Positions 3,225 to 34,150 of a DNA stretch of 36,446 nucleotides are shown here, in pieces. The position numbers and the translations under genes were made by a program. The stretch lies in contig JBBHKE010001707.1 in NCBI GenBank assembly GCA_037447655.1, positions 79,727 to 116,172 of the forward strand, written 5' to 3'. Under the pieces are notes generated by a model, which was not told where the DNA came from, searched no databases, and worked only from the letters and a program-made list of their open reading frames with translations. Every line of letters begins with the position of its first letter. Position 1 is the stretch's first letter. Source of the stretch: Zygnema cylindricum. Taxonomy: Eukaryota; Streptophyta; Zygnematophyceae; Zygnematales; Zygnemataceae.

Positions 3225-3793
3225 TGAAAGGATCGATAATAAATTCCGATCTCACTAACAAATACTTATAGCAGCAGAAGCATTCAGAATATAAAACATT
3301 ACATCAACATTGAAGAGACATTTCAGAAAATTCTCGCATTAATAAAAAAACTGAAATTACAATTTCTTCTCTCTCTCTTCTATTACTCCATATAATCCTC
3401 CAATTCCTCATTTATTGATTAACACACAGTCATGGTGTCCCTTAAATACAATACCAGCCATGGCGTGACACGTGTGAGCGTGCGCCGCCAAGAAGCCTCT
3501 AGAAATCCGCCACCTGTCCGCAGATTAAGCTAGAACACTCTAAATTTCACTAAGGACTCAAACATAGCAAAAACGACAAACCAAAACGAAAGTACTAGAC
3601 AAAACTAGAATTACTATCGTACTAAACTAGACGTACGAAAATTCTAGACGCGAAACCAAACGACAAATTCATTTCGCGAAACCTACAGAACTTTCACGTA
3701 ACTGTACTTTTGATATATTCAAGAAAGTACAGTTTTCTTTCGCAAAATCAAACTGATTTCGCGTGCGTACGATTCTTTCAATGAATCGTAACA
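3225..3793 (-). repeat. Copia-1 3' LTR
   Basis: 569-bp direct repeat of 8677-9246, with TG...CA termini and next to the polypurine tract at 3794-3805. On the minus strand a TATTTAAG TATA-like box lies at 3441-3448. An inverted repeat with 11-bp arms AACTGTACTTT/AAAGTACAGTT occupies 3700-3734, and a second hairpin with arms TACGATTC/GAATCGTA lies at the extreme LTR end. Confidence 0.95.
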
Positions 3794-3805
3794 TTCCCCC
3801 TCTTC
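3794..3805 (-). other. Copia-1 polypurine tract
   Basis: Reads GAAGAGGGGGAA on the minus strand, directly abutting the TGTTACG start of the 3' LTR. This is the expected plus-strand primer site for reverse transcription. Confidence 0.85.
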
Positions 3806-3823
3806 ATTGAAGAATCGTCTACG

Positions 3824-5374
3824 TCACAATAATCCTAGTTTAGGTCTTCCTCTTAAAAGCACATCAAACGTCGCCGCCTTAGTAAGCATATCGGCAGCTT
3901 CCTCAAGTGTCGATACATACAAAAATTCCATTTCTTTTGCCGCTACCAAATCTCGTACGAAATGCCATTGAATCCGTATATGTTTAGTGCGCTTGTGAAA
4001 TACTGGATTTTTCACAAGTGCCATTGAACTCATACTATCCGTAAAAATTTTTTGGCATCCAATCGAAAACCCAAGTTCGCTTAACATTTCTTTTATCCAT
4101 ATTGATGCCTTGCTTGCGTGGCACGCCGCCATATACTCGACCTCCGTTGAACTTAGTGCCACGGTTGGTTGCAAACGCGAACTCCACGAAATCGCCGCTC
4201 CACCAAACACGAATGCGTATCCGGACGTTGATTTTCCCGAATCGAAATCTCCGCCCCAATCGGCGTCGCAATATCTGACGCATTCCAGCGATTCAATTTC
4301 AGATTTGAATACAAGACCGATATCTATAGTTCCCGCCAAGTATCGAAATATACGCTTGACGGCTTCCCAATGCGATTTCTTAGGCGCTTGACAATATCGA
4401 CTTACAATTGAAACGGCGGCCGAAATATCGGGCCGCGTACCAACACTTAGGTACATTAAACTTCCAATCGCTTCGCGATACGGTACATCTACCGTCGCTT
4501 CTTCCTCAAACTTTCGCAATTGACTTTTCGCGTCCATAGGCGTCGAAATTGGTTTTGCGTCAAGCATAGAAAACCGAGTTAATACCTCTTTACAATATTG
4601 TGCTTGACTTAACTTTATATCCCCGTTCTCATTACGAATCACTTCAATTCCCAAAATATATTTTACTTCGCCAAGATCTGTGACTTTGAAATGTTGTCGT
4701 AAGTACGCTTTCAATTCGCGTATACGTTCCAAACTATCCGACGTCATCAAGAAATCATCGACGTAAACCGAAAATATAATTTGATCTTTTCCTTGTCCTT
4801 TCACGTACACTCCAGAATCCGAGATCGTACGTGTGAAACCAAAATCCAAAAGTACTTTGTGTAGTCGTAAATACCAAGTGCGAGGCGCTTGCTTCAATCC
4901 GTAGAGCGATTTGCGAAGACGCCATACCATGCCTTCTCGTGATGTCACGCCTTCGGGTACCTTCATATAAACCTCTTCTTCTAAGTCTCCATTTAGGAAC
5001 GCGGTCTCCACATCCATTTGATGAACGTGTTTCTTCTTTGCAGCGGCAATCGCCATAATCATCCTTAAAGAGTCGAATTTCACAACGGGGGCATACGTCT
5101 CCGTGTAATCTGCCCCCTCTCTTTGCTGAAATCCTTTGCATACAAGTCTCGCCTTATATTTTACTACTTCACCCGATGCACCAGTTTTAGTTTTGAAGAC
5201 CCATTTCGCGTCAATCGCTTTCTTTCCTTCCGGTAATTTTACTTCCTCAAATGTCTGATTTTCCACAATTGATTTATACTCCTTCTCCCATGCCGGCTTC
5301 CACTTCGTTTCCCAATCACACGAGTTTCTCGCCTCCGCGTATGATTGAGGATCGCCGGCCAAATTCTCGCACAT
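3824..5374 (-). CDS. Copia-1 reverse transcriptase and RNase H
   Basis: An uninterrupted 516-residue open frame containing the whole copia-type reverse transcriptase and RNase H. Visible blocks are KARLVCKGFQQREG near residue 75, QMDVETAFLNGDLEEEVYMK near 120, the active-site motif YVDDFLM near 205, and GSLMYLSVGTRPDI near 305. The RNase H part follows, with CDADWGGDFDSGKSTSGY, SSTEVEYMA and TDSMSSMAL. It makes cDNA from element RNA and removes the RNA template. Translation is expected from the upstream polyprotein: this frame is exactly in phase with 5381-5932 and separated from it only by one UAG, followed by CAA UUA AUG. The ATG at 5374 is therefore probably not an independent start. It terminates in UGA. 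Confidence 0.93.
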   Translation of the reverse strand: MCENLAGDPQSYAEARNSCDWETKWKPAWEKEYKSIVENQTFEEVKLPEGKKAIDAKWVFKTKTGASGEVVKYKARLVCKGFQQREGADYTETYAPVVKFDSLRMIMAIAAAKKKHVHQMDVETAFLNGDLEEEVYMKVPEGVTSREGMVWRLRKSLYGLKQAPRTWYLRLHKVLLDFGFTRTISDSGVYVKGQGKDQIIFSVYVDDFLMTSDSLERIRELKAYLRQHFKVTDLGEVKYILGIEVIRNENGDIKLSQAQYCKEVLTRFSMLDAKPISTPMDAKSQLRKFEEEATVDVPYREAIGSLMYLSVGTRPDISAAVSIVSRYCQAPKKSHWEAVKRIFRYLAGTIDIGLVFKSEIESLECVRYCDADWGGDFDSGKSTSGYAFVFGGAAISWSSRLQPTVALSSTEVEYMAACHASKASIWIKEMLSELGFSIGCQKIFTDSMSSMALVKNPVFHKRTKHIRIQWHFVRDLVAAKEMEFLYVSTLEEAADMLTKAATFDVLLRGRPKLGLL

Positions 5375-5380
5375 TAATTG

Positions 5381-5932
5381 CTATAAAAGGAATTCCGTCT
5401 CCTTTGCATCGGAGACGAAATAATGGGAATTAGAATTCTCTCCACCAATTTTGTCATAAGAAAGCCGATTCGGTTTCTTTCCTCGATTCTCTCGAGTACT
5501 TCTTCTAAGGATTGGAACTTGTTCCACATTTTTCTCCTCCTCCATATTTGATAAACTCGATTTTGAGCTTGAGGATTTTTGACTTTCCGTCGACATTTTG
5601 GAATTTCGGCTCACATTACTCCGAACATCAATGTCCAATTTCTCCGAACTCGAATCAACATTCGATTTTCCCTTCTTGATGTTAACAATGGATTCTGGTT
5701 CCTCATCAGAATCCGAATCCTCAATTTCCGGGAAATTGGCAACATCGTCTACATCATAAAAATCAAGATTCTTTTTCAATTCCGCTGATTTTTCAATAAC
5801 CGATTTTAAGTATTCATGAAAATTAACATTTCGGGATTCTTCCACAATACGACGAACCGGGTCGAATACACGATAAAGATTTCCTTTCGTACTATAGCCC
5901 ACGAAAAATTCCGGGCCAACTTCTCGCCGCAA
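5381..5932 (-). CDS. Copia-1 integrase C-terminal part and linker, ending in a UAG
   Basis: Encodes the end of the integrase core region (EVGPEFFVGYSTKGNLYRVF and VRRIVEESRNVNFHE). A low-complexity acidic/serine linker follows, then the conserved RRSTRENRGKKPNRL and KETEFLL. It stops at UAG (5381-5383) followed by CAA UUA, then continues in the same frame into reverse transcriptase. The first codons overlap the preceding frame; the switch lies near 5925 and looks like a small indel. A homologous stop exists in Copia-2 at 27124-27126. Confidence 0.85.
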   Translation of the reverse strand: MRREVGPEFFVGYSTKGNLYRVFDPVRRIVEESRNVNFHEYLKSVIEKSAELKKNLDFYDVDDVANFPEIEDSDSDEEPESIVNIKKGKSNVDSSSEKLDIDVRSNVSRNSKMSTESQKSSSSKSSLSNMEEEKNVEQVPILRRSTRENRGKKPNRLSYDKIGGENSNSHYFVSDAKETEFLL

Positions 5933-6374
5933 ATTTCCCTTTCCTTTTCACTTGATCCACATACACCGTAGCACGACATCCCCAAATTCGGAGATGATGG
6001 AGAGCTGGTTTTCGCCCATAAAGTAATTCGAATGGTGTTTTATCACCGGAAACCGAAGTAAGTCTCCGATTACAAATATAATTGGCCGTGAGGATAGCAT
6101 CTCCCCATAATGAGATACTTTGACCGGCCGAATGCACCATCGCCCTCACCATTTCTTGTAAGGTCCTATTCTTCCTTTCGGCAACTCCATTTGATTCCGG
6201 AGAATAAGGTGAAGTAAATTGTTGGGTAATACCTTTCTCCTTACAATACCTCTCGAATGCGATAAATTCGCCTCCATTATCCGAACGAATGGCTTTCAAT
6301 TTCCGTTCGCATTGTCTTTCGGCAAATGCATGCCACTCAATAAAAGTTTGAAGAGCATCCGATTTTCTCTTCAA
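5892..6374 (-). CDS. Copia-1 integrase catalytic core
   Basis: Carries the second and third integrase catalytic regions: RSDNGGEFIAF (Asp) and YSPESNGVAERKNRTL (Glu), then WGDAILTANYICNRRL and LHHLRIWGCRATVYV. It catalyses insertion of element cDNA into the host chromosome. The frame differs from those on both sides; shifts near 6395 and 5925 separate it from the neighbours, so this copy cannot make a full polyprotein by simple translation. Confidence 0.88.
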   Translation of the reverse strand: MKRKSDALQTFIEWHAFAERQCERKLKAIRSDNGGEFIAFERYCKEKGITQQFTSPYSPESNGVAERKNRTLQEMVRAMVHSAGQSISLWGDAILTANYICNRRLTSVSGDKTPFELLYGRKPALHHLRIWGCRATVYVDQVKRKGKFAARSWPGIFRGL

Positions 6375-6955
6375 TAATCGAACCCACGAAAATCTTGAAT
6401 AATCACCATAATATATTGATTTCCTCCAAGGCTTTCCGGCTTAATTTGCCCACATAGATCGACGTGGACAAGCTCCAAAGGATGTTGAGCCCGAAATTTC
6501 ACATCCTTCGTTGGATGTGATTTCCGAATTTGTCGTCCTTGACTACATCCATCACACCCATTTACTTTTTCGCCGGTAGCAAGATCTAATCCTCTCACAC
6601 ATGCCGTTTTTATCATTTTCCTCAAATTTCCTTCGGATGTATGACACATCCGATGGTGCCATAACGTTAAATCTCCTTTTAATTTCGAGATTTGATTTAG
6701 AATGCCCGTGGAAGAAGCATTCTTCCTTGGTCGCCTCCATAAAAGTCGACTATGCATCGAATTGTTGACTTCGCCTTCGCCGATTAATTTGCCGTCGGCG
6801 CGATATATACGAATCACCGAATCACCTCTCGCGACTACGCTCCCACCGGCTCGCTGAATTTGAGGTACGCTTAATAGATTCACTGAACCATCAGGAATAT
6901 ATAGGACATTCAATAGACGCGCCTCCGAAATAGTTTCATTCCAAAACGGTCCCAT
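6371..6955 (-). CDS. Copia-1 pre-integrase and integrase zinc-binding region
   Basis: Contains the GAG-pre-integrase motif (LYIPDGSVNLLSVPQIQ), then the HHCC zinc-binding part (LTLWHHRMCHTSEGNL ... CDGCSQGRQ) and the first catalytic Asp in LELVHVDLCGQI. The frame ends prematurely near 6371-6400, where the frame used by the rest of integrase takes over. At residue position GGNQY, Copia-2 has a UAG in place of the Gln codon. Confidence 0.88.
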   Translation of the reverse strand: MGPFWNETISEARLLNVLYIPDGSVNLLSVPQIQRAGGSVVARGDSVIRIYRADGKLIGEGEVNNSMHSRLLWRRPRKNASSTGILNQISKLKGDLTLWHHRMCHTSEGNLRKMIKTACVRGLDLATGEKVNGCDGCSQGRQIRKSHPTKDVKFRAQHPLELVHVDLCGQIKPESLGGNQYIMVIIQDFRGFDY

Positions 6956-7590
6956 GTGGGTAAATTTAATCGAACGGTACCCACGGTACCAACCGTAATA
7001 GTTTGTCCACTTGCGACCGTAATAAGCTTTGGTACGGTAAGTGAACGCATGTCATCAAAAAGTGTAGCGTCCGTACACACGTGGTGAGACGCCCCCGTGT
7101 CAATTATCCATTCCTTTTCGCGTGCGTCACTTGGTTCACTTAATGAATCAATAGTGAGGTGAAGACAAGTGAACGTTTGTCCTCCTTCGTCTCCTTCAAA
7201 ATTTCCCGAATCAACAAAATTTCCATGGTTGCCGCCATGGCCGCCATAGCGTCCACGACCACGACCACTATCACGTCCGCGACCGCGACCTCCAAAACTG
7301 CGACCGCCTCTTACTCCTCCGTTACTAAACTTAGAGTAGCATTGTTTGCTCGTGTGGCCTAGTTTCCCACAATTGAAGCATTCTTTCTCCTTTTTCCGGA
7401 CACGACGCCGAAAAATGACCGAGCCGGTTGCAACGGAAACACAAGACGTTGCAATTATCATTCTGGACGAACCGAGGTCTCGAAATTTCGCTCCTATCAA
7501 GCCACTTTCCACGACCTCTCGGACCTCCTCCTTTTCCACCCCCTCTTCCACGGAAATAATATAAGTCCGCGAATTCGCGAGCGGACACAT
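6910..7590 (-). CDS. Copia-1 second zinc knuckle and aspartic protease
   Basis: In this frame the useful part begins near 7385 with the CCHC knuckle CFNCGKLGHTSKQC. A Gly/Arg-rich RNA-binding stretch and the protease motif EWIIDTGASHHVC follow. The protease cleaves the Gag-Pol polyprotein. Sequence before 7385 in this frame is unrelated to Gag. A further frame change near 6930 leads into the pre-integrase region. Confidence 0.87.
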   Translation of the reverse strand: MCPLANSRTYIISVEEGVEKEEVREVVESGLIGAKFRDLGSSRMIIATSCVSVATGSVIFRRRVRKKEKECFNCGKLGHTSKQCYSKFSNGGVRGGRSFGGRGRGRDSGRGRGRYGGHGGNHGNFVDSGNFEGDEGGQTFTCLHLTIDSLSEPSDAREKEWIIDTGASHHVCTDATLFDDMRSLTVPKLITVASGQTITVGTVGTVRLNLPTWDRFGMKLFRRRVY

Positions 7591-8398
7591 TCAAGGATCC
7601 CGTGTCCAAAGAGCCTTTTGAAGAGCTAACACGATTACTCTCCGCCATCTTTAAATAATTCACAATAAATTCGTAAGTATTATTTTCCCTCGCAAGTAAA
7701 ATCTCCTTGAGATGGATCCACTTATCCAGTAATGAATTCAAAAATCCGGTTACTTTGTCCTCCTCCGTGATCACTCTCCCATTGTTAAGAAGTTGCTCCA
7801 CAATAACCTTGAATCTCTTCACGGCATCGTCAAAGGATTCGTTGGATTTCATCTTGAATTGCAAAAAATCGGAAAACATATATTGGCCCTTGTTTCGGAT
7901 TCCCCTCTCAAATTGGGATTCCAACGCCTTCCAACATCCGTGTGCGGTGCTATGCGTGAGAAAATGATCATGCACGGAGACCGAACAAGTTTGCTTTAAT
8001 CCGGTGATGGCCGCAAGATTCTTTCGCTTCCACAAACAACGAGTCTTAACATCTCCAACCGGCATTTTCTCCTCTCCATTGACGACCTTCCAAAGGCCTC
8101 TCAAAATCAATTGAGCTCGAATATATTTCTTCCACAAAGGGTAATTCAATCCATTGAATACAACGGTCTTTCCGGGCATCTGAAACATTTCCACTCCTCC
8201 TTGATGATCTTCTTCTAAATCGGAATCGTCATCAAGCTTAAATTTCCCCCTCTTATCTTTCACTTTCTTTGCCTCCCCATCACTATCATCGGAATCATCT
8301 CCATCGGGATCGGGATCCGGATCATCGTGAGTTAATTCATCAAACCTCCTATCCACGACCGAGAACCTCTCATCAATCCGACGCATGAAATTCTCCAA
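7331..8398 (-). CDS. Copia-1 Gag (copia-type capsid) with first zinc knuckle
   Basis: Encodes the copia-type Gag: an acidic N-terminal stretch, VVFNGLNYPLWKKYIRAQLI, TAHGCWKALESQFERG, FDDAVKRFKVIVEQLLNNGR and the knuckle CFRCNRLGHFSASC. Gag packages the RNA in the virus-like particle. Homologous Copia-2 sequence joins two knuckles directly; here the frame shifts by one base at a GAAAAAGGAGAAAG run near 7385. Upstream the frame continues past a UAG at 8408-8410 to about 8555. Confidence 0.9.
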   Translation of the reverse strand: MENFMRRIDERFSVVDRRFDELTHDDPDPDPDGDDSDDSDGEAKKVKDKRGKFKLDDDSDLEEDHQGGVEMFQMPGKTVVFNGLNYPLWKKYIRAQLILRGLWKVVNGEEKMPVGDVKTRCLWKRKNLAAITGLKQTCSVSVHDHFLTHSTAHGCWKALESQFERGIRNKGQYMFSDFLQFKMKSNESFDDAVKRFKVIVEQLLNNGRVITEEDKVTGFLNSLLDKWIHLKEILLARENNTYEFIVNYLKMAESNRVSSSKGSLDTGSLNVSAREFADLYYFRGRGGGKGGGPRGRGKWLDRSEISRPRFVQNDNCNVLCFRCNRLGHFSASCPEKGERMLQLWETRPHEQTMLL

Positions 8399-8553
8399 AT
8401 ACTCTTGCTATTGATTGTCAGACATCGAACCACCGACGCCTCTATTTTGATCAAATGAATCCGTGGGGAATGATGACTCAAATGCGGCTCCGGTAAAACT
8501 GAACTCTTTCTCTTCTTTAGAAGGATCCTCGGGAGTCGGCAAATTTTCCCAAA

Positions 8554-8619
8554 ATTAGAAACGGGGGTAGCTGAAGAGAAGGGAGTGAAAGGGGACTTCT
8601 TTTTGTTCTTTCCCCCCAT
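8554..8619 (-). CDS. Copia-1 Gag N-terminus, frame-shifted fragment
   Basis: ATG at 8617-8619 begins MGGKNKKKSPFTPFSS, matching the start of Copia-2 Gag (MGRKKNRNTPSP). After roughly 22 codons the homologous sequence (KEEKEFSFTGAAFESS) continues in another frame; the change falls at an AATTTTGGGAAAATTT run near 8555. A UAG at 8408-8410, followed by CAA GAG, interrupts the continuing frame. Confidence 0.75.
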
Positions 8620-8662
8620 GCGCCAACACTAGACAAGGAGATACCACAATGGAGCTCTACCC

Positions 8663-8674
8663 GCTCCGATACCA
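8663..8674 (-). other. Copia-1 primer-binding site
   Basis: Reads TGGTATCGGAGC on the minus strand, two bases inside the 5' LTR. It matches the complement of the plant initiator-Met tRNA 3' end (TGGTATCAGAGC) except for one G. The identical variant and spacing occur in Copia-2. Confidence 0.88.
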
Positions 8675-8676
8675 AA

Positions 8677-9246
8677 TGAAAGGATCGATAATAAATTCCG
8701 ATCTCACTAACAAATACTTATAGCAGCAGAAGCATTCAGAATATAAAACATTACATCAACATTGAAGAGACATTTCAGAAAATTCTCGCATTAATAAAAA
8801 AACTGAAATTACAATTTCTTCTCTCTCTCTTCTATTACTCCATATAATCCTCCAATTCCTCATTTATTGATTAACACACAGTCATGGTGTCCCTTAAATA
8901 CAATACCAGCCATGGCGTGACACGTGTGAGCGTGCGCCGCCAAGAAGCCTCTAGAAATCCGCCACCTGTCCGCAGATTAAGCTAGAACACTCTAAATTTC
9001 ACTAAGGACTCAAACATAGCAAAAACGACAAACCAAAACGAAAGTACTAGACAAAACTAGAATTACTATCGTACTAAACTAGACGTACGAAAATTCTAGA
9101 CGCGAAACCAAACGACAAATTCATTTCGCGAAACCTACAGAACTTTTACGTAACTGTACTTTTGATATATTCAAGAAAGTACAGTTTTTCTTTCGCAAAA
9201 TCAAACTGATTTCGCGTGCGTACGATTCTTTCAATGAATCGTAACA
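8677..9246 (-). repeat. Copia-1 5' LTR
   Basis: 570-bp direct repeat of 3225-3793 with the same TATTTAAG box (8893-8900) and the same 11-bp-arm hairpin (9152-9186). It should carry the promoter for the element's genomic RNA. Confidence 0.95.
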
Positions 9247-20450: not shown

Positions 20451-20844
20451 ATGGCTCTCCTCCGCCTGGCTCCTCTCCTGGTCCTCTCTCTCTCCCTCTC
20501 CCTCTCCCTCCTCCTGGGCCCTGCGCACGCCCAGCCGCGCACCACCTCGGAGTTGATCTGGGCGATGCAGACGAGAATCAAGGCAAGCGAGAACTACGGG
20601 AACTTCCAGAAGTACTTCTACGCCTCCAGTGAGAACACCTCTCTCTCTCTCTCTCCCTCTCTCTCTCTCTCTCCAACTCTCTCTCACCCTCTCTCCCCCT
20701 CCCTTTCTTTCTCCCTCCCTCTCTGAAAATCTCCCTCTCACCTTCTTCCACTCTTTCTTTTTCTAAAACTATCTCTCTCTCTCGCTTGACTTTCCCTCAC
20801 CCTCTCTATCTTCCTCACTTGCCTTCTCTCTCGTTCCTCTCTCT

Positions 20845-20899
<55 letters not shown>

Positions 20900-22086
20900 C
20901 TCGCTGTTTAATTCTCCCATAGCAATATCATGGCAGGTAACTCTTATGTTTCCCCGTCTCCCTCATTCACATGGTAATATCCGATTTCATTCTCTTCTGA
21001 CTCCCTCTCTCTACACCTTATGGTGATCTCTAACTAGCTCTCTTTTTTGTCTCTCACTCTTCTTTTTACCCATGTTGTAACATTCTGCTATCCTTCCCTT
21101 AATAATAATATTTCATTACCCCTCTCTGCTCTTTCCCTCTTTCACTCCCACTTCCCAACCCTTAACTCCCTCCCTCTCCCTCTCCTTCTCCCTCTCCCTC
21201 TCCCTCACTCTCTCCCTCTCTCTCTCATCCGCCTGGTAATATTTGATTTCTTTCTCTTATCTTTCCCTCTCAATACCACGTGGTGATCTTCAGCTAGCTC
21301 TCTCTTTTCTCTCTCTTCCCTCTTATCCAGCCTTACTCTTAACAAAGATACCTCATTGCCTCTCACTCCCTCCACTCCCAAAACCCAACTCTTAACTCCC
21401 TCCCTAACCCACTCCCTCTCCTTCTCCCTCTCCCTCTCCCTCTCTCTCCCTCTCTCTCTCAGCCGCCCCTCTCGCCCTCTTCGACCTGATCGAGAGCGGC
21501 GTCTCCGTCACTGTCCTCGTCCCCTCCAACAAGGCCCTCGCAAAAATTCCCGAATCCGTCAAAACCCACAATGTCACTTTTGGCGCCATCGTTCTCTTCA
21601 ACTCCCTCAAGGGCCGAGTCACCATCCACGACCTCGCCAAGGCCCGGATCGGCGCCACGTGGAAGTCGCTGTACGCTAATGCTGACGTCACCAAAGTTGT
21701 CGCTTCCACAAAATCCAAATATGGGCTCAAGATTTCCGGCGCCACCAAATCCTCTGCCGTCGTGGACGTACGGAAGGGTAACTTTTTTAAGAACGGCAAA
21801 CTTTACTGCCATGGTGAGTGAGACAAAAACAATTCGTCACGGCCAGGCACGATTTGTCACAGTTTTTTGTCTTTCGTGGTGTCGTGTTTGGCACAATTAT
21901 GGTCTGTTATGTCGTCTGTACGGCTGTTCCATGTTGCAGTCTGTTCCAGTCCTGTCTTGCTTTTGCTCCGAGCTATTTTTTGCTCTATTCTGTTTTGAGG
22001 AAGATTTTAGGAGACTTTTTGACACGTGGCATTCGTTTTTGCATCTGCCAGGTGTCACCTCCTACTTGGTGCCTAAAGGGTTGTGA
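20451..22086 (+). CDS. Secreted single-FAS1-domain (fasciclin-like) protein, three exons
   Basis: Spliced model: exons 20451-20628, 21463-21813 and 22052-22086 (178+351+35 nt), giving 187 residues and a UGA stop. Introns have GT-AG ends: TCCA|GTGAGA...CTCTCAG|CC and CATG|GTGAGT...TGCCAG|GT, with phases agreeing throughout. Residues 1-27 are a signal peptide (MALLRLAPLLVLSLSLSLSL..., AHA|Q). The FAS1 domain fills the rest: H1-like TVLVPSNKALAKIP near residue 75, an FNSLKG block, and the H2-like end FFKNGKLYCHGVTSYLVP. FAS1 proteins act at the cell surface or wall in adhesion. There is one FAS1 domain and no proline-rich arabinogalactan segment or GPI signal, unlike classical FLAs; it resembles the small FLA20/21-like group. 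Intron 1 (834 bp) is full of CT repeats. The tiny last exon supplies the conserved end of the domain. Confidence 0.85.
20635..21462. repeat. CT-rich microsatellites in FAS1 intron 1
   Basis: Blocks of (CT)n/(CTCCCT)n at about 20640-20725, 20765-20900, 21120-21230 and 21395-21460. The sentence-like pair TGGTAATAT(C/T)...GATTTC recurs near 20970 and 21233, suggesting internal duplication of intron sequence. Confidence 0.85.
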
Positions 22087-23301: not shown

Positions 23302-23962
23302 TGTTGGATTATTGTCGTTTCGCGGTATTTCTGCGAAGCGTCATACCAACTTATATTTGTTTGACGCGAACTGTCGCGTCATCATACAAAAAAGTACGAT
23401 GTCGTTTCGCGACAGTACTTTTGTTGTTCGCGAACGAAACATACTATTTCGTTTCGCGTCACTCGTTTTGTTTCGTGCGCAGGTGTTTCAATTTGCGTGC
23501 AGGTGTGTTCGTGAAGCGACACGTGTTAAGTCAACGTTTGGAGTTTGTTGTTTCGAAGGAAGAAGCGTGTGCGCCTTCCTTCGTGGAACTTTCATTGAAG
23601 AGTGCACAGTCAGCTAGGGACAGACTTCGTCGCTACGTTAAGTTTTGCTTGTCTTATCTTGTTGTCTCTTAGTTGCGGAGTAGCGAGTATATATAGGCAG
23701 CAGTGTACATGTGCAGAGTAATCTATCAATTGTATCTTACATGATTGAATCATAGAGGATTTGATATTGGAGTAAGAGATTATTTAAAGAGGATAGAGAA
23801 GAGAGAGAAGAGAGAAGAGAGATGATGTAAAGAGGCTTCGGCCAAGAACACTTATAAATCTTTTTGGCTGAATATTCCTCTTGTCTTTATGAGCTTCCGC
23901 TGTGTAATGATTTATGTTTTATGAATTATTTTAAGTGAAACTCTTTGGCTTTAGATCCTACA
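23302..23962 (+). repeat. Copia-2 5' LTR
   Basis: 661 bp, TG...CA. TATA box TATATATA at 23688-23695. Two inverted repeats: AAAAGTA/TACTTTT with inner TGTCG/CGACA (23390-23422), and CGAAGGAAG/CTTCCTTCG (23554-23583). Confidence 0.95.
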
Positions 23963-23964
23963 AT

Positions 23965-23976
23965 TGGTATCGGAGC
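23965..23976 (+). other. Copia-2 primer-binding site
   Basis: TGGTATCGGAGC, two bases after the LTR, complementary to initiator-Met tRNA with one mismatch; same variant as in Copia-1. Confidence 0.88.
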
Positions 23977-24003
23977 TAGTGCTTCGAGATAGAGAGGGAG
24001 AGC

Positions 24004-24282
24004 ATGGGGAGGAAGAAGAATAGAAATACTCCTTCCCCCATGTCGACTTCGGAGAGAGCAAGAGAGTTCAGTTTTTCGGGTTCTCAATTTGAGGAGACTC
24101 GGAATACGGAGAGAAAATTTGAGGAGATGTTCGATACATTAATGAGATATGTAGATTCACGATTTCAAACTCAATCTAGTGAGAAAAGAGAATTTGCTTC
24201 ATTTCAGGCTGCCGATCCATTCAGTGGAGGAGCTAATGAGAGTGAGATAAAAGAGAGAATTAGAAAGGTAAAGCAAAGGTAG
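24004..24282 (+). CDS. Copia-2 Gag N-terminal fragment
   Basis: Starts MGRKKNRNTPSPMSTSERAR and includes REFSFSGSQFEET, both homologous to the broken start of Copia-1 Gag. The homologous frame (KVEEDSDFEEALDNEDDYN) continues in a different phase after about 24260; the rest of this frame up to the UAG at 24280 is out of phase. Confidence 0.8.
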   Translation: MGRKKNRNTPSPMSTSERAREFSFSGSQFEETRNTERKFEEMFDTLMRYVDSRFQTQSSEKREFASFQAADPFSGGANESEIKERIRKVKQR

Positions 24283-24308
24283 AGGAAGATTCAGATTTTG
24301 AAGAGGCA

Positions 24309-24958
24309 TTGGATAACGAAGATGATTATAATATGTCGGGGAAATCCATGGCCTTTAATGGCACCAATTATGCGGTTTGGAAGAAATTTATTTCAAATCA
24401 ACTTATTCTCAAGAGGCTTTGGAGGATTGTCAATGGAGGAGAAGATGCCAACGGAGAGCAAGGCACGTGCTCAATGGAGGTTGAAGGATATTGCGGCAAC
24501 AACCGGTTTGATGAAGAATTGCACTTCTTCGGTGCTTGATCATTTCCTCGCTCACCGGCACGGCCCATGAGTGTTGGCAAGTACTTGAGGAGCAATATGA
24601 GAAAGGCGTTGAGAACAAGGGTCAATATGTTTATACGGACTTTATGAATTTTAAAATCAAATCAAATGAAGTGATGGATGATGCCGTGAAGCGCTTCAAT
24701 ATTATACTCGAGCAATTACTCAACAATGGCCGAGTTATTTTGGATGCGGATAAATTAAGCGTGTTTGTTAACACTTTGCCGGATAAGCTTTCGCATCTTA
24801 AAGCTATTATACGAGCAAAGGCGGATAATACTTTCGGATTCACCGTTAATTTTATCAAAATGTCGGAGGGAACTCCATCGGCTTCTTCAAGTGGAGGAGG
24901 AGGAGTTCTAAACTCTACTAATCCCGAAACCCCGGATCTTAACTATGCCGGGTGGTAG
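24309..24958 (+). pseudogene. Copia-2 Gag capsid region, frame-shifted
   Basis: Three frames share one Gag homologue. 24309 to about 24450 carries SGKSMAFNGTNYAVWKKFIS and RLWRIVNGG. About 24450 to 24560 carries KDIAATTGLMKN and SSVLDHFLAH. About 24560 to 24950 carries TAHECWQVLEEQYEKG and MDDAVKRFNIILEQLLNNGR. All match the single-frame Gag of Copia-1. Gag would form the particle shell; this copy cannot encode it without the shifts. Confidence 0.85.
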
Positions 24959-25535
24959 AGGAGGTGGTAGAGGAGGTGGCCCGAGAGGTGGTGGTAGCGG
25001 CCGAGGCAACAAGAGGGAGCAAGGTCGTCCACCGAAGATCCCTTCGGATCTTTCCAATGTGACATGCTACCGGTGTAACCGGCTTGGACACTTGTCATCC
25101 TCTTGTCCGGATAAGGACAAGCAATGTCATTCTTGTGGTAAGTGGGGACATACGATTTCTCAATGTTATTCGAAGAGTCGAGATTCCGGAGGTGGAAGAG
25201 GAGCTAGAGGAGGTGATAGAGGCGCCCGAGGTGGCGCTCGAAGAGGAGGCCGCGGTGGTGGTCGTGGTTATGGTAATGCTAATTACTTCGACTATGGTAA
25301 TGAAACCGGTGATGTTTTTCCGGTTCTTAACCTTACCCTTGATTCGGTGAGTAGTGAAGGAAATTTAGAGAAGGAGTGGATTATTGATACGGGGGCATCT
25401 CACCATGTTTGCATGGATGCTACCTTGTTTGATGATATGAGGGAACTCACGGTTCCAAAGTTTATTACGGTTGCAAGCGGCCATGTCATTTCGGTTGGAA
25501 CGGTTGGCACAGTTCGGCTTGATCTTCTTTCATAG
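24945..25535 (+). CDS. Copia-2 nucleocapsid zinc knuckles and protease
   Basis: Gly/Arg-rich stretch, then two CCHC knuckles in one frame (CYRCNRLGHLSSSC and CHSCGKWGHTISQC), another RGG-rich stretch and the protease motif EWIIDTGASHHVC. The frame ends at UAG (25533-25535), directly followed in phase by DNDGKEKSTEYRVQN and the next segment. The Copia-1 residue at this UAG appears to be Trp, so a TGG-to-TAG change is one explanation. Confidence 0.88.
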   Translation: MPGGRGGGRGGGPRGGGSGRGNKREQGRPPKIPSDLSNVTCYRCNRLGHLSSSCPDKDKQCHSCGKWGHTISQCYSKSRDSGGGRGARGGDRGARGGARRGGRGGGRGYGNANYFDYGNETGDVFPVLNLTLDSVSSEGNLEKEWIIDTGASHHVCMDATLFDDMRELTVPKFITVASGHVISVGTVGTVRLDLLS

Positions 25536-25610
25536 GATAATGATGGGAAAGAAAAATCGACGGAGTATCGTGTTCAAAATACTCTTTACATTCCGGACGG
25601 TTCGGTCAAT

Positions 25611-26072
25611 TTGTTAAGCGTTCCACAAATCCAAAAGAGTGGTGGAAGCTTACTTGCGAGAGGTGATCAATCTATTGAGATTTGGAATGAGAAGGGGAAT
25701 GTAATTGGAGAAGGAGTTGTAACGGATGCGAATCATAGTCGGCTCTTATGGAGGAGGCCGAAATCTAAAGTTCCCACCAAGGGAATTTCACACGAAATTT
25801 CGGAGTTGAAAGGTGATCTTACCTTATGGCATCATCGAATGTGTCACACATCCGAGGTAAGTTTGAAGAAGATGATTCGTCATTCTTCGGTGAGGGGTTT
25901 GGACCTCGCATCCGGTGAGAAGGTGAATGGATGTGGAGGATGTAGCAAAGGACGTCAAGTTCGGAAATCTCATCCGAATAAAGACATCAAGCATCGAGCT
26001 CAAAGTCCTTTGGAGGTTGTTCACATCGATCTTTGTCGACATATTAAACCCGAGACAATTGGAGGTAACTAG
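25611..26072 (+). CDS. Copia-2 pre-integrase and zinc-binding region
   Basis: In phase with the preceding protease frame. Contains LTLWHHRMCHTSEVSLKK, CGGCSKGRQ and the first catalytic Asp in LEVVHIDLC. It is interrupted by UAG at 26070-26072 in GGN*YTLV, where Copia-1 has Gln (GGNQYIMV). The frame then continues into the catalytic core. Confidence 0.88.
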   Translation: MLSVPQIQKSGGSLLARGDQSIEIWNEKGNVIGEGVVTDANHSRLLWRRPKSKVPTKGISHEISELKGDLTLWHHRMCHTSEVSLKKMIRHSSVRGLDLASGEKVNGCGGCSKGRQVRKSHPNKDIKHRAQSPLEVVHIDLCRHIKPETIGGN

Positions 26073-26078
26073 TATACT

Positions 26079-26507
26079 TTGGTGATTGTTGATGACTTCT
26101 CTCGGAAGTCATGGGTGTATTTATTAAAAAATAAATCGGATGCATTTGAAAAACTTAAAGAATGGCATGTAATGGCCGAAAGGCAAATTGATAAGAAACT
26201 TAAATCCATTCGTTCGGATAATGGAGGGGAGTTTGTTGTTTTTGAGGGGTATTGTAAGGAGTGGGGGATAAGGCATCAATTCACGGCGTTTTATTCTCCG
26301 GAGTCAAATGGAGTGGCCGAGAGGAAGAATCGTACCTTACAAGATATGGTCCGTGCGATGGTCATAGCTCCGGACGAGAGATGTTTTTTTGGGGAGATGC
26401 GATTCTTACGGCGAATTATATTTGTAAGCGAAGACTCACTTCAGTTTCCGGAAGTAAAACACCGGAGGATTTATGGAGTGGTAGAAAGCCCACGGTTCAT
26501 CATTTGA
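26079..26507 (+). CDS. Copia-2 integrase core
   Basis: In phase with the previous segment across the UAG. Carries IVDDFSRKSWVYLLKNKSDA, IRSDNGGEFVVF (catalytic Asp) and YSPESNGVAERKNRTL (catalytic Glu). After about 26390 the homologous reading moves to the frame of 26261-26827, so the last 40 codons here are not integrase. Confidence 0.87.
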   Translation: MVIVDDFSRKSWVYLLKNKSDAFEKLKEWHVMAERQIDKKLKSIRSDNGGEFVVFEGYCKEWGIRHQFTAFYSPESNGVAERKNRTLQDMVRAMVIAPDERCFFGEMRFLRRIIFVSEDSLQFPEVKHRRIYGVVESPRFII

Positions 26508-26827
26508 GAATTTGGGGATGTCATGCTACGGCTTATGTGGAATCAATTAAGAGGAAAGGGATATTTGCACCAAGGAGTTGGCCCGGAATTTTTATTGGAT
26601 ATAGTGCGAAGGGGAGTTTATACCGAGTATATGATCCGGCTCGTCACACCGTGGAGGAATCTCGGAATGTAGATTTTCATGAGGATCTCAAATCCGCCAT
26701 GAATTCCGTTGGAAATGTAAAGAAAATTTGGATTTTTATGAGGAGAGTGAAATTGAGAGTTTTCCGTTCATTGGGGATTCGGAATCCGATGTGGAAGCGA
26801 ATGAGAAAACTAAGAAAAACAATTTGA
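26261..26827 (+). CDS. Copia-2 integrase C-terminal part
   Basis: The homologous section runs from about 26390 (WGDAILTANYICKRRLTSVS) through VHHLRIWGCHATAYV to YSAKGSLYRVYDPARHTVEE and NVDFHEDLKSAM. It leaves this frame near 26720, where 26728-27126 takes over. Confidence 0.83.
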   Translation: MGDKASIHGVLFSGVKWSGREEESYLTRYGPCDGHSSGREMFFWGDAILTANYICKRRLTSVSGSKTPEDLWSGRKPTVHHLRIWGCHATAYVESIKRKGIFAPRSWPGIFIGYSAKGSLYRVYDPARHTVEESRNVDFHEDLKSAMNSVGNVKKIWIFMRRVKLRVFRSLGIRNPMWKRMRKLRKTI

Positions 26828-27126
26828 AGAAATCGGTTGAAGTTGAATTTGAAAGTAAGAGTAATGGATCTTTGGATTCCCGAGTGCGTTCGAACATTCG
26901 GAAATCTCAAAGCTCTAAATCGAGTTCTAAATCGAGTGAGAAGGAAATTGAAATTGAATCCGAGGAAGAGAAAGAGGAAAAGGAGGAGGAGCAAGTTATT
27001 AGGAGGAGCTCTCGGATAACAAAGGGGAAGAAACCGGAGAAACTCATTTACGATCGAAAAGGGGAAAATACATCAAATTCGCATTATTTTCTTTCCGATG
27101 CTAAAGAGACGGAGTTTCTTTTGTAG
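26728..27126 (+). CDS. Copia-2 integrase/RT linker ending in a UAG
   Basis: Acidic, Ser/Lys-rich linker (SSKSSSKSSEKEIEIESEEE), then RRSSRITKGKKPEKL and KETEFLL, as in Copia-1. It stops at UAG 27124-27126 followed by CAA UCA, and continues in the same frame into reverse transcriptase. Both elements have UAG at exactly this point. Confidence 0.86.
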   Translation: MDFYEESEIESFPFIGDSESDVEANEKTKKNNLKKSVEVEFESKSNGSLDSRVRSNIRKSQSSKSSSKSSEKEIEIESEEEKEEKEEEQVIRRSSRITKGKKPEKLIYDRKGENTSNSHYFLSDAKETEFLL

Positions 27127-27144
27127 CAATCACTTACGGAGAAT

Positions 27145-27522
27145 ATGACCGGCGACCCTCAATCTTATGTCGAGGCTAGGAGGTCGGTTGATTGGGAGAG
27201 TAAGTGGAAACCGGCGTGGGAGAAAGAGTTTAAGTCAGTGGTTGATAATCAAACTTTTGAGGAAGTGAAATTACCGGAGGGGAAAAATGCGATTGATGCA
27301 AAGTGGGTCTTTAAAACCAAAACTGGAGCGTCGGGTGAAATAATTAAGTACAAGGCGAGGCTTGTGTGTAAGGGGTTCCAACAACGTGAGGAAATCGATT
27401 TTAAGGAGACTTATGCTCCCGTGGTGAAGTTCGACTCACTACGGATTATTATTGCAATTGCAGCAATAGGGAAGAAGCACGTCTATCAAATGGACGTTAA
27501 AAACCGCGTTATTAAATGGTGA
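27145..27522 (+). CDS. Copia-2 reverse transcriptase N-terminal part
   Basis: In phase with 26728-27126 across the UAG. Contains TGDPQSYVEARRSVDWESKW, AKWVFKTKTGASGE and KARLVCKGFQQREE. The frame is lost near 27500 within the QMDV-TAFLNGELEEEVY block, where one or two bases differ from Copia-1. Confidence 0.88.
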   Translation: MTGDPQSYVEARRSVDWESKWKPAWEKEFKSVVDNQTFEEVKLPEGKNAIDAKWVFKTKTGASGEIIKYKARLVCKGFQQREEIDFKETYAPVVKFDSLRIIIAIAAIGKKHVYQMDVKNRVIKW

Positions 27523-27523
27523 G

Positions 27524-27808
27524 TTGGAGGAAGAGGTATATATGAAGGTACCGGAAGGTGTCTCTCCTTTGCAGGAAGGAAATGTATGGCGTTTGCGAAA
27601 GTCATTATATGGTTTGAAACAAGCACCACGCACTTGGTATTTGAGACTTCATCAAGTACTATTGAAGTTTGGATTTGTACGGACTACGTCCGATTTTGGA
27701 GTTTATGTGAAAGGTGAAGGAGTTGACCAAATCATCTTTTCCGTTTATGTGGATGATTTCTTGATGGCATGCGACAAGTTGGAGCGCATTAGTGAGTTGA
27801 AACGTTAG
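27524..27808 (+). CDS. Copia-2 reverse transcriptase catalytic part
   Basis: LEEEVYMKVPEG-type block, WRLRKSLYGLKQAPRTWYLR and the catalytic FSVYVDDFLMA. It ends at UAG 27806-27808 (ELKR*FGLHFKV) and continues in the same frame. Copia-1 has Tyr at the aligned position, though alignment there is loose. Confidence 0.88.
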   Translation: MEEEVYMKVPEGVSPLQEGNVWRLRKSLYGLKQAPRTWYLRLHQVLLKFGFVRTTSDFGVYVKGEGVDQIIFSVYVDDFLMACDKLERISELKR

Positions 27809-27856
27809 TTTGGTTTACATTTCAAAGTAACAGATCTTGGAGAGGTACGATATATT

Positions 27857-28687
27857 TTGGGGATTGAAGTGATACGTGACAAAGAGGGGAACATTAAATT
27901 GAGTCAAACTCAATATTGTAAAGAGATTTTGGAGAGATTTGGTATGTGTGACGCGAAACCGCTTTCTACACCGTTGGATACAAACCTACACATTCGTAAG
28001 TTTGAAGAAGAGGATTATATCGACGTACCATATCAAGAGGCGGTTGGTTCACTTATGTACCTTAGCGTTGGTACTCGTCCAGATATTTTGGCCGCGGTTT
28101 CCATCGTCAGCCGTTATTGTCACGAGCCAAAGAAGGCACACTGGGAGGCCGTACGACGTATCCTTCGATACTTGGTTGGTACGATTGATCTTAGACTTTT
28201 GTTTACTTCTGACAAAAAATCTTTGGACTGTGTTGGGTATTGTGACGCGGATTGGGCCGGCGATTTTGATTCAAGTAAGTCCACGTCAGGATATGCATTT
28301 ATTTTTGGAGGAGCTGCGATTTCGTGGAGTTCAAGGCTACAGCCTACAGTTGCGTTGAGTTCCACAGAATCTGAGTATATGGCTGCGTGTCATGCAGCTA
28401 AGGCATCTATTTGGATTAAGGAGATGTTACGTGAGATAAGCATTCCAATTGGTTGTATGACGATTTATTCTGACAGCATGAGTTCAATGGCGTTGGCGAA
28501 AAAACCTGTGTTTCACAAGAGGACGAAACACATCAGGATCCAATGGCATTTTGTAAGAGATTTGGTTACGGCAAATGAGATTGTATTTTCGTACGTACCA
28601 ACAAAAGAGGAAGCGGCTGATTTGTTGACAAAGGCTGGTACACATGATGTGTTTGAGAGGGGACGACCGAAACTTGGATTATTTTGA
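27857..28687 (+). CDS. Copia-2 reverse transcriptase end and RNase H
   Basis: In phase with the preceding segment. GIEVIRDKEGNIKLSQTQYC, GSLMYLSVGTRPDI, then RNase H with CDADWAGDFDSSKSTSGYAF, SSTESEYMAACHA, SDSMSSMAL and KRTKHIRIQWHFVRD. It terminates in UGA, as Copia-1 does. Confidence 0.92.
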   Translation: MGIEVIRDKEGNIKLSQTQYCKEILERFGMCDAKPLSTPLDTNLHIRKFEEEDYIDVPYQEAVGSLMYLSVGTRPDILAAVSIVSRYCHEPKKAHWEAVRRILRYLVGTIDLRLLFTSDKKSLDCVGYCDADWAGDFDSSKSTSGYAFIFGGAAISWSSRLQPTVALSSTESEYMAACHAAKASIWIKEMLREISIPIGCMTIYSDSMSSMALAKKPVFHKRTKHIRIQWHFVRDLVTANEIVFSYVPTKEEAADLLTKAGTHDVFERGRPKLGLF

Positions 28688-28708
28688 AGAGTTTGGCGAT
28701 TTCGACAA

Positions 28709-28720
28709 TAAGAGGGGAAT
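28709..28720 (+). other. Copia-2 polypurine tract
   Basis: TAAGAGGGGAAT directly before the TGTTGG start of the 3' LTR; expected plus-strand primer. Confidence 0.8.
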
Positions 28721-29379
28721 TGTTGGATTATATTCGTTTCGCGGTATTTCCGCGAAGCGTCATACCAACTTGTATTTGTTTGACGCGAAATGTCGCATCA
28801 TCATACAAAAAGTACGATGTCGTTTCGCGACAGTACTTTTGTTGTTCGCGAATGAAACATACTATTTCGTTTCGCGTCACTTGTTTGTTTCGTGCGCAGG
28901 TGTTTCAATTTGTTTGCAGGTGTGTTCGTGAAGCAACACGTGTTAAGTCAACGTTTGGAGTTTGTTGTTTCGAAGGAAGAAGCGTGTGCGCCTTCCTTCG
29001 TGGAACTTTCATTGAAGAGTGCACAGTCAGCTAGGGACAGACTTCGTCGCTACGCTAAGTTTTGCTTGTCTTATCTTGTTGTCTCTTAGTGCAGAGTAGC
29101 GAGTATATATGGCAAGAGTATACATGTGCAGAGTAATCTATCAATTGTATCTTACATGATTGAATCATAGAGGATTTGATATTGGAGTAAGAGATTATTT
29201 AAAGAGGATAGAGTAGAGAGAGAAGAGAGAAGAGAGATGATGTAAAGAGGGCTTCGGCCAAGAACACTTATAAATCTTTTTGGCTGAATATTCCTCTTTT
29301 CTTTTATGAGTTTCCGCTGTGTAATGATTTATGTTTTATGAATTATTTTAAGTGAAACTCTTTTGCTTTAGATCCTACA
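28721..29379 (+). repeat. Copia-2 3' LTR
   Basis: 659-bp copy of 23302-23962 with scattered substitutions, many C/T or G/A, and a few one- or two-base indels. TATA box at 29104-29110. Confidence 0.95.
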
Positions 29380-30808: not shown

Positions 30809-30932
30809 TGTTGGAGAACTGTCCACTATGGACTCCACACGTGTGTATTGCGGTGTAAGCTGGTTCACTAGTGCGCCGCTTATCGCCGTATAAATTTGGT
30901 ATTAGGCGCTTGCGTATACATCGGTCGGGTAG

Positions 30933-32082
30933 TGCAACTTTGAGACCTCCATAGGTCTGTAGGCAGCTCACACGAAGCCTCTAGGAAAACCCTGACCCCT
31001 TTGTGTTTCACCAAGAATGACCCCTTTGTGTTTCAGCAAGAATGACCCCTTTGTGTTTCAGCAAGAATAACTGTCATGACAGGCAGAAACTCTAACCACC
31101 TTGACACACAAAAAATTTGACCACCTTCACCCTTGTGAAGTCAAGACTCCGCTAGGTTGATAGAAAAAAGAATCTCTGAATTCCCCTAGGTTGATAGCAA
31201 AAAGAATCTCTGAATTTGCTACCCTGAGCAGTAAGTTATGGCTGGTCAAAGATGACCTTTATAGTTACAAGCTCTCTTAGAGAGAGGTACCTAAATATCA
31301 CTAAGTCTTGGTCTGCCTACTCGCGACTACCTACTACTAAACCCTAGTCCAATAGGAACACTATATAGTACAAGAAGGTACAATAGGAGATGTACAAATT
31401 GTACGTCCATTGTACGGCATAGTCTACAAGGTAACACCTCTCAAATTGGGAGCCATGGTTCCTCCTCCTATCTTCTCTGGTATCAAATAATGCGGCGCCA
31501 CGTGGCACCGCATGACGCTATCTCCGAATGCCGCCAAAAGCTCACTTCGGGTGGCGGCTACAATGTTGGGCGTCCGATCAAAACATATTTTACACGGTTC
31601 AGATTCGCGTACGTGCATGAATTGTTCCTCTTTGTTAGTTTGGTGTTAATTAGCTGTTGCATTAATCTTTATATATCTTTGGAATATATCACGTGTATCG
31701 AAAAAGCCTTAGTGGATAAAGCTAACGACTACATAGTGAACCATGGACCAAGGTTCAAATCCGGACTTAGGCATCATTTTGGTAAAACATCCTCTACTTC
31801 AAAATCTGCCAATTTCTAAATATGGCCACAGCCATGGCGTGCCTTTGATCATCACTCTCTCTCTTAAAGTATAACTAAAATAGAGAAGTGAACTATTAAT
31901 TACCTCTTTTCAACAACAACTGCCTGTCTCTCTCTGGACAGCACAGGCAACCATGGCTCTAGCTCCCTCTTCAAACTTCAGTGACTGCGACAAGTGTGGG
32001 AGCTTAAGATAGGAGTTAGAGGCTTCTTTTCTGCATTTTATTTTAAACCTAGAAAATACTAAAAGAACCATTAATTTCTACA
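30933..32082. mobile_element. 1,150-bp TG...CA insertion (solo-LTR-like) with its own tRNA-like unit
   Basis: Begins TGCAACTTTGAG, ends TTTCTACA and is flanked by the 5-bp duplication GGTAG (30928-30932 and 32083-32087). TG...CA with a 5-bp duplication suggests a solo LTR or a very reduced LTR element, but no internal direct repeat marking two LTRs was found. It carries three copies of a 25-bp unit at 30993-31067, a two-copy 35-bp repeat near 31148-31218, and a TATATAT box at 31670-31676, 36 bp upstream of a tRNA-like sequence. No convincing reading frame. Confidence 0.75.
31706..31773 (+). other. tRNA-like Pol III unit inside the nested insertion
   Basis: 68 bases with acceptor-like ends GCCTTAG/CTTAGGC (6 of 7 pairs), an A-box-like TAGTGGATAAAG, a perfect B box GGTTCAAATCC and TTTT four bases after the end (31777-31780). 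The T-stem and D-arm do not pair properly, so this is a tRNA-derived promoter unit rather than a working tRNA. Confidence 0.55.
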
Positions 32083-32149
32083 GGTAGCTCAGTTGGTAGA
32101 GCTAGTGTACGGTTCACACAGGTCCCGGGTTCGAACCCCGGCTTGGCCA
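32083..32149 (+). pseudogene. tRNA-like unit of the TRIM 5' LTR, 3' part
   Basis: Remaining part of the 5' LTR tRNA-like unit after insertion of the 1,150-bp element; its first ten bases are at 30923-30932. Sequence from the D-arm to the discriminator base is the same as in the intact copy except CTTGGCC instead of CTTAGCC in the acceptor stem, which pairs better. TTTT follows at 32150-32153. Confidence 0.7.
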
Positions 32150-32209
32150 TTTTCCAAAGTTAACACTTTGGCGCCCTTGCGATTAGTCGAATATCGCCGA
32201 TCCTCAATA

Positions 32210-32225
32210 TGGTATCAGAGCCAGG
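32210..32225 (+). other. TRIM primer-binding site
   Basis: TGGTATCAGAGCCAGG, complementary over 16 bases to the 3' end of plant initiator-Met tRNA as I remember it (including part of its T stem), three bases after the LTR. This longer, exact match contrasts with the one-mismatch site of the two copia elements. Confidence 0.85.
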
Positions 32226-32259
32226 GGGCGATGGCAAGCCACACGAGATGGAGAAAATT

Positions 32260-32270
32260 GTGAGGGGGCG
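32260..32270 (+). other. TRIM polypurine tract
   Basis: GTGAGGGGGCG directly before the TGTTGG start of the 3' LTR; a plausible plus-strand primer despite the interrupting pyrimidines. Confidence 0.65.
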
Positions 32271-32513
32271 TGTTGGAGAACTCTCAACTTTGGACTCCAC
32301 ACGTGTGTATCGCGCTGTAAGCTGGTTCGCTAGTGCGCGGCTAATCGCCGTATAAATTCGGTATTAGGCGCTTGCGTATACATCGGCCGGGTAGCTCAGT
32401 TGGTAGAGCTAGTGTACGGTTCACACAGGTCCCGGGTTCGAACCCCGGCTTAGCCATTTTCCAAAGATAACAGTTTGGCGCCCTTGCGATTAGTCGAATA
32501 TCGCCGATCCTCA
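32271..32513 (+). repeat. TRIM 3' LTR, intact
   Basis: 243 bp, TG...CA. Contains TATAAAT (32351-32357), the tRNA-like unit (32385-32456) and TTTT (32457-32460). A GA tract follows at 32517-32582. Confidence 0.87.
32385..32456 (+). tRNA. tRNA-like gene embedded in the TRIM LTR (formal anticodon GGT, no U33)
   Basis: 72 bases with tRNA geometry: acceptor GGCCGGG/CTTAGCC (two G-U pairs and one C-A mismatch), D stem GCTC/GAGC, anticodon stem AGTGT/ACACA (four of five pairs), T stem CCGGG/CCCGG with loop TTCGAAC, discriminator A. A box TAGCTCAGTTGG (32392-32403) and B box GGTTCGAACCC (32435-32445) are near consensus, and TTTT follows at once. The anticodon loop ACGGTTC would place GGT at 34-36, but position 33 is C rather than U, so decoding is unlikely. 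It probably serves as an internal Pol III promoter or a structural RNA of the element. Confidence 0.65.
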
Positions 32514-32612
32514 ATAGGAGAGAGGGAGGGAGAGAGAGGGAGAGAGGGAGAGAGAGGGAGAGAGAGGGAGAGAGAGAGAAAGCGGAACATCTAAAGGGAC
32601 GGCATTGAAACA

Positions 32613-32974
32613 TTGTTAAGAATCGCAAAAGTGCTCATAGAGATGCTCACATACGAAAATCTAATCCTACAATAGAAGCTTAAATAAACATATTCTTACA
32701 AATAAATAAAACACTCATAGCTCACAGAACACTGTATTGGACAAATATCAATATATTTAGCTGAAGAGCATTACAATACAAACTCTCTCCATCTCTACTT
32801 CTTACTCACTCTGACATATATCTGAAGTCTTACACTTCCTCCGTCCTCAGTTCTTCTCTCCTACACTTTGATGTGTCTCTCCTTCAAACACATGATGCAT
32901 TCTCTTCAAACACATCATGCCTCCTCTGTAAGATTGGATTTTCATATGTGAGCACTTTTGCGATCTTTAACAAA
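32613..32974. mobile_element. MITE with about 45-bp imperfect inverted repeats, Mutator-like
   Basis: Ends TTGTTAAGAATCGCAAAAG and the complement of GCGATCTTTAACAA, with further paired sequence (GTGCTCACATA, GAAAATCTAATC). It is flanked by a 10-bp duplication CATTGAAACA (32603-32612 and 32975-32984). A 9-11-bp duplication with long inverted repeats fits Mutator-like elements. The interior has tandem CAAACACAT(G/C)ATG words and no gene. Confidence 0.65.
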
Positions 32975-32984
32975 CATTGAAACA

Positions 32985-33933: not shown

Positions 33934-34150
33934 TACCGTGAATCACTATTAGAGTTAATGTTTTTTGCCACTTAAAACATGTTTTCTCCGTACACACTTG
34001 ACGGATTATAGATTTGACAGTTTCGATTCAAAGGTATGATTCTCAACTTCCAATCGGCGGTCTCAAATCAAAAATCGCGCAAGTGTGTACGGAGGAAAAA
34101 TGTTTTAAGTGGCAAAAAAAATGTTAACACTAATAGCGATACACGGTGTA
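33932..34150. mobile_element. Foldback MITE, about 219 bp, about 70-bp inverted repeats
   Basis: The two arms (from TACCGTGAATCACTATTAG and from its counterpart ending ACACGGTGTA) pair over about 70 bases, including TTGCCACTTAAAACAT and CTCCGTACACACTTG, leaving a short unique centre. The terminal motif belongs to the same group as the MITEs at 15241 and 18591. It abuts the end of the hAT-like remnant. Confidence 0.75.

Follow-up and report, generated by a model that had tools for sequence, protein, structure and literature searches.

A probable TRIM-type LTR retrotransposon of the Helenus design with a tRNA-like unit in each LTR

What kind of element carries a tRNA-like sequence in both of its long terminal repeats (LTRs), and is such a design new? 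This question was raised by a short locus in a stretch of DNA of 36,446 nucleotides, which was analysed as a whole and is called the window here. An earlier note on this DNA had proposed a non-coding LTR element with a predicted tRNA-type Pol III unit, that is, a tRNA counterpart of Cassandra, and the anatomy of the locus, as read from its sequence, supports that proposal. Repeat search and LTR alignment within the window revealed two LTRs in direct orientation, 246 bp each, which flank an interior of 61 bp, so that the element without a later insert measures 246 + 61 + 246 = 553 bp. The two LTRs are identical at 233 of 246 aligned positions and differ at 13, if the GGTAG duplication made by the insert is counted once. 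The interior (32210-32270) is too short to code; it opens with TGGTATCAGAGC and closes with GAGGGGGCG, and GTGAGGGGGCG, which is not pure purine, stands immediately upstream of 32271. The initiator-Met primer site and the purine tract that had been noted for the interior were both recovered, the former with every base of TGGTATCAGAGC complementary and the latter as a purine-rich end before the 3' LTR. The coordinates of all main features are collected in Table 1.

The paired LTRs of the earlier note stand, but its lengths of 243 bp for the LTR and 64 bp for the interior do not fit as well. In both LTRs the sequence ATA continues past the CA, and identity ends exactly after this ATA. Because ATA is common to both LTRs and identity stops there, the LTR ends are most likely TG..TA, which gives the sizes of 246 and 61 bp. 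Transversions account for 8 of the 13 differences between the LTRs, and recombination between copies is one possible cause of this transversion-rich pattern. The differences are spread without significant bias (9/114 in the first 114 LTR bases vs 4/132 in the rest, p = 0.15).

Table 1 Coordinates of the main features in the window
Feature	Position	Strand	Details
5' LTR, left piece	30809..30932	+	U3 and first bases of tRNA-like unit; ends in GGTAG duplication; 114/124 identical to 32271-32394
Separate 1150-bp insert in 5' LTR	30933..32082		TG..CA ends; 5-bp duplication GGTAG at 30928-30932 and 32083-32087
5' LTR, right piece	32083..32209	+	A box 32085, B box 32128, TTTT 32150, U5; 124/127 identical to 32390-32516; RF00005 30.5 bits
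Primer-binding site TGGTATCAGAGC	32210..32221	+	complementary to initiator-Met tRNA 3' end, 12/12
Purine tract before 3' LTR	32255..32270	+	AATTGTGAGGGGGCG region, core GAGGGGG; read from sequence
3' LTR, uninterrupted	32271..32516	+	TG..TA, 246 bp; LTR alignment
TATAAAT	32351..32357	+	34 bases upstream of tRNA-like unit; putative Pol II TATA box or upstream Pol III element, role predicted
tRNA-like unit, 3' LTR	32385..32456	+	ARAGORN tRNA-Thr, anticodon GGT; RF00005 41.9 bits; A box 32392-32403, B box 32435-32445
TTTT, Pol III terminator-like	32457..32460	+	directly 3' of tRNA-like unit; sole run of at least 4 T in 3' LTR
Copia A	3225-9246	-	LTRs 99.65% identical; RVT_2 274.8 bits
Copia B	23302-29379	+	LTRs 96.1% identical; RVT_2 32.8 bits in one fragment

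A separate insert, of which the earlier note made no mention, interrupts the 5' LTR. It lies within the tRNA-like part, just upstream of the A box, and since the GGTAG duplication keeps the A box whole on the right side, the tRNA model still matches the unit of this LTR. A repeat finder gave 34 nt as the longest direct repeat inside the insert, and because there is no longer one, a solo LTR is the simplest reading; the insert is probably the solo LTR of another element. Its flanks have purine fractions of 0.53 and 0.57, which means that it does not lie in a homopurine or homopyrimidine tract. The insert also contains a second, decayed tRNA-like stretch (31705-31780) with an exact B-box-like GGTTCAAATCC at 31752 and TTTT at 31777. 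This stretch had no Rfam match at E ≤ 1; it may be an old SINE or else another LTR that bears such a unit.

The tRNA-like unit begins 114 bases into each LTR. Covariance-model search of the window with Rfam assigned both units to RF00005 (gathering score 29), the 3' LTR unit with 41.9 bits (E 9.9e-06) and the 5' LTR unit, at 32081-32145, with 30.5 bits (E 0.013). ARAGORN, run on the window, called the 3' LTR unit as tRNA-Thr(GGT) and did not call the one in the 5' LTR. By the Rfam alignment marks, standard pairs make up 19/21 of the model stem pairs in the 3' LTR unit and 17/18 in the 5' LTR unit. Both LTRs carry the A box TAGCTCAGTTGG (32392 and 32085) and the B box GGTTCGAACCC (32435 and 32128), the latter one base off GGTTCGANTCC, the B-box consensus, and TTTT follows straight after each unit (32457 and 32150). 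So the tRNA-shaped unit with A and B boxes and then TTTT, as the earlier note had described it for each LTR, was confirmed. A third Rfam row, Six3os1_2 (28.2 bits, E 0.034, gathering score 80), was set aside as a chance hit in low-complexity sequence.

The LTR alignment also reproduced the count of 2 of 13 differences in the tRNA-like part, from which constraint or homogenisation of this part had been suspected. However, 2/72 differences there vs 11/174 elsewhere in the LTR is not significant (Fisher p = 0.36), so this hint was not supported. The LTR pair is silent on selection at the family level, because both LTRs of a copy are identical at insertion and diverge by drift afterwards.

The earlier note knew of no described family of this design, but one had already been published. 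The name Helenus was given by Kojima 2024 (PMC10886601) to TRIMs that bear tRNA-like sequences in their LTRs, and this paper also proposes the name TRIMp3. The hosts given in this paper are Pucciniales, some Agaricomycetes, six animal phyla and one plant, Selaginella moellendorffii. It reports 5-bp target duplications in the plant and fungal families, ties the fungal families to Copia via their primer sites, and suggests that Helenus arose by SINE2 insertion into a TRIM LTR; Pol III function is expected there but not yet validated (PMC10886601). A 2026 meeting report cites Kojima 2024. No other description of this design was recognised by title or opening of the abstract among the matches listed, which came mostly from the open literature, and for TRIMp3 the matches besides Kojima 2024 were on unrelated subjects by title. 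Gao 2016 (PMC4717578) reports TRIMs in Selaginella and three algae, and the word tRNA does not occur in its main text.

Five of the eight Helenus features listed were found here, namely a short non-coding element, paired direct LTRs, tRNA-like boxes, a primer-binding site and a purine tract. The box motifs given for Helenus are TRGCY..YGG for the A box and a B box that contains GGTTC (PMC10886601); in both LTRs TAGCTCAGTTGG fits the former and GGTTCGAACCC holds the latter. The parts for copying in trans are also present (paired LTRs, initiator-Met primer site, purine tract). We therefore consider it likely that the element is a non-autonomous TRIM-type LTR retrotransposon of the Helenus design, which was probably moved in trans by Copia proteins. 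It is probably a new member of the Helenus type, with a predicted promoter function. No TRIM copies were found elsewhere in the window, and exact-pattern scans of viral contigs, an unlikely place, gave 0 matches for each of three pieces of 29-31 bases.

How such an element could be transcribed can be modelled from its parts. The boxes and the terminator would fit Pol III, which may begin transcription at the unit in the 5' LTR. Part of the transcripts would pass the short TTTT there and end only at the one in the 3' LTR. Only two runs of at least 4 T occur in the LTRs and interior, each after a tRNA-like unit, so that in an uninterrupted copy an RNA that begins at the 5' unit and ends at the 3' terminator would have about 383 nt and a unit at both ends, which could act as the R region for strand transfer. 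The scarcity of T runs itself is uninformative, because 70% of shuffled sequences are equally poor in them. Copia reverse transcriptase and integrase would then copy and insert the TRIM RNA, and later another element would have jumped into the 5' LTR of the present copy. Self-priming by the LTR's own tRNA-like end was rejected, with matches at only 4/12 positions. Against this model, the first TTTT should halt Pol III within the 5' LTR; partial read-through is needed for the full RNA. A Pol II start is also possible, given the TATAAAT found 34 bases before the unit.

An alternative is an ordinary TRIM driven by Pol II. The tRNA-like unit would then be a passenger left by an old SINE or tRNA insertion, and the TATAAAT at 32351 would place the start of Pol II close to where the unit begins. 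The position of this motif and the TTTT right after the unit, which would end Pol III in the 5' LTR, both agree with such a passenger. However, TATA-like motifs also occur upstream of plant tRNA genes, and the unit has little decay (full match in the A box, one base off in the B box, 19/21 standard pairs), with the limit that a single copy can't show conservation. On this evidence we rate the passenger as a rather unlikely alternative to the Helenus design.

Within the Helenus design, the tRNA-like unit with its TTTT may be exactly the R region, where Pol III start and stop would set both RNA ends and the TATA box would let Pol II start at the same place. We hold this to be unlikely and offer it as a tentative idea. 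One LTR would then give two products, a short tRNA-like RNA that ends at the first TTTT and a genomic RNA made by read-through or by Pol II. If true, this would reconcile retrotransposition with a Pol III terminator inside the 5' LTR, a problem that Cassandra poses too.

Could the LTR instead bear a working, decoding tRNA-Thr gene that is spread by the element? The ARAGORN call and the 19/21 standard stem pairs are in favour of such a gene. But GGT is not known as a regular anticodon of nuclear tRNA-Thr in eukaryotes, the 3' LTR unit has one non-standard pair in the acceptor stem and one in the anticodon stem, and the RNAfold minimum of the unit is not a cloverleaf. Kojima 2024 (PMC10886601) states that a few Helenus families are able to encode tRNA-Thr, but rates Helenus as a less likely source of functional tRNAs. 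A decoding gene is therefore very improbable here. Also very improbable is that the repeats are no LTRs and that a tRNA gene was duplicated in tandem together with its flanks, which the earlier note had named as a reading that would undo its own. Two tRNA-like units do lie in direct repeats 307 bases apart, but the stretch between the repeats has an exact initiator-Met primer site on its left border and a purine tract on its right, the repeats start with TG, and the whole element splits a GA-rich tract; on these grounds the duplication was rejected.

The target site and two Copia elements in the window bear on the question of the helper. The TRIM splits a GA-rich tract, with 40-base flanks of 97% and 100% purine; its flanking GGGGA and GGAGA, a putative 5-bp duplication, agree at 4/5 positions, in GA-rich sequence where such a match means little. 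Copia A and Copia B have perfect 5-bp duplications (GGGGA and TCCTT, respectively), and both are inserted in homopurine or homopyrimidine tracts. Their primer site TGGTATCGGAGC matches the initiator-Met tRNA at 11/12 positions, a GAGGGG core precedes the 3' LTR in both, as in the purine tract of the TRIM, and the LTR of Copia B starts with TGTTGGA, as does the TRIM LTR. For the TRIM, Copia A and Copia B alike, both 40-base flanks have at least 90% or at most 10% purine, which holds for 2574/22303 background points (11.5%), with a threshold chosen after looking. Because the threshold is post hoc and such tracts abound in the window, a shared preference of the TRIM and the Copia elements for homopurine or homopyrimidine targets is suggestive only. 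Comparison of the TRIM LTR and interior with both Copia elements gave nothing shared except short chance-level matches and the primer site. Since the TRIM and both Copia elements have the type of primer and the core of the purine tract in common and all three sit in homopurine or homopyrimidine tracts, Copia is the likely helper, and Copia A and B are candidates for the helper class. Protein search with the Copia reverse transcriptase gave 7866 matches at E ≤ 0.001 among 8000 candidates scored; the best among the 120 matches listed was 64% identical, and the 13 of those listed with an organism name were from flowering plants.

Other features of the window were recorded as well. Next to the TRIM, 32603-32984 is MITE-like, with inverted arms at 32613-32671 and 32927-32973, and is bounded by a 10-bp direct repeat CATTGAAACA (32603-32612 and 32975-32984), a duplication length that we take to recall Mutator-like elements. 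An inverted repeat at 33958-34122 has 76-nt arms, 80% complementary and 13 nt apart, and is possibly a MITE or hairpin. A probable host gene lies at 20451-21821; its intron is filled with CT repeats, and its fasciclin-like exon scored 21.5 bits, just below the Pfam cut-off of 22. In a protein search no relative reached E 0.001, whether this exon was used alone or joined to the preceding one.

If the host is a plant, which the relatives of the Copia reverse transcriptase suggest, the element adds a Helenus family where Kojima 2024 lists a single plant species. For annotation, tRNA-like LTRs yield tRNA-gene calls, of which ARAGORN made one here, and such calls may be mistaken for real tRNA genes.

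Compared with known systems, the element shares with SINE2, the tRNA-derived SINEs, a tRNA-like sequence with internal A and B boxes, but SINEs have no LTRs, primer-binding site or purine tract. A free-standing SINE2 with its tRNA-like head at the start was rejected, because the unit here sits 114 bases inside each of two LTRs. Cassandra is described as an exception that is transcribed by Pol III (PMC12786077), and its primer site is TGGTATCAGAGC (PMC7215508), identical to that found here. Both have a Pol III-type small RNA gene with a terminator in each LTR, which is 5S rRNA in Cassandra and the tRNA-like unit in this element; Rfam gave tRNA and no 5S rRNA match in the element, so membership in Cassandra was rejected. 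The closest design is Helenus, with two LTRs that each have tRNA-like A and B boxes, a primer-binding site and purine tract in a short interior, and a short non-coding element of 311-1263 bp (PMC10886601), as compared with 553 bp here without the insert. Most fungal Helenus families prime at the tRNA anticodon loop (PMC10886601), whereas the primer site here corresponds to the initiator-Met tRNA 3' end. Helenus-1_SMo of Selaginella moellendorffii, compared by its published description, has an LTR of 120 bp, an interior of 85 bp and 5-bp duplications (PMC10886601), in contrast to the LTR of 246 bp and interior of 61 bp found here. The element thus looks like a further example of a known design and not a new kind of element.
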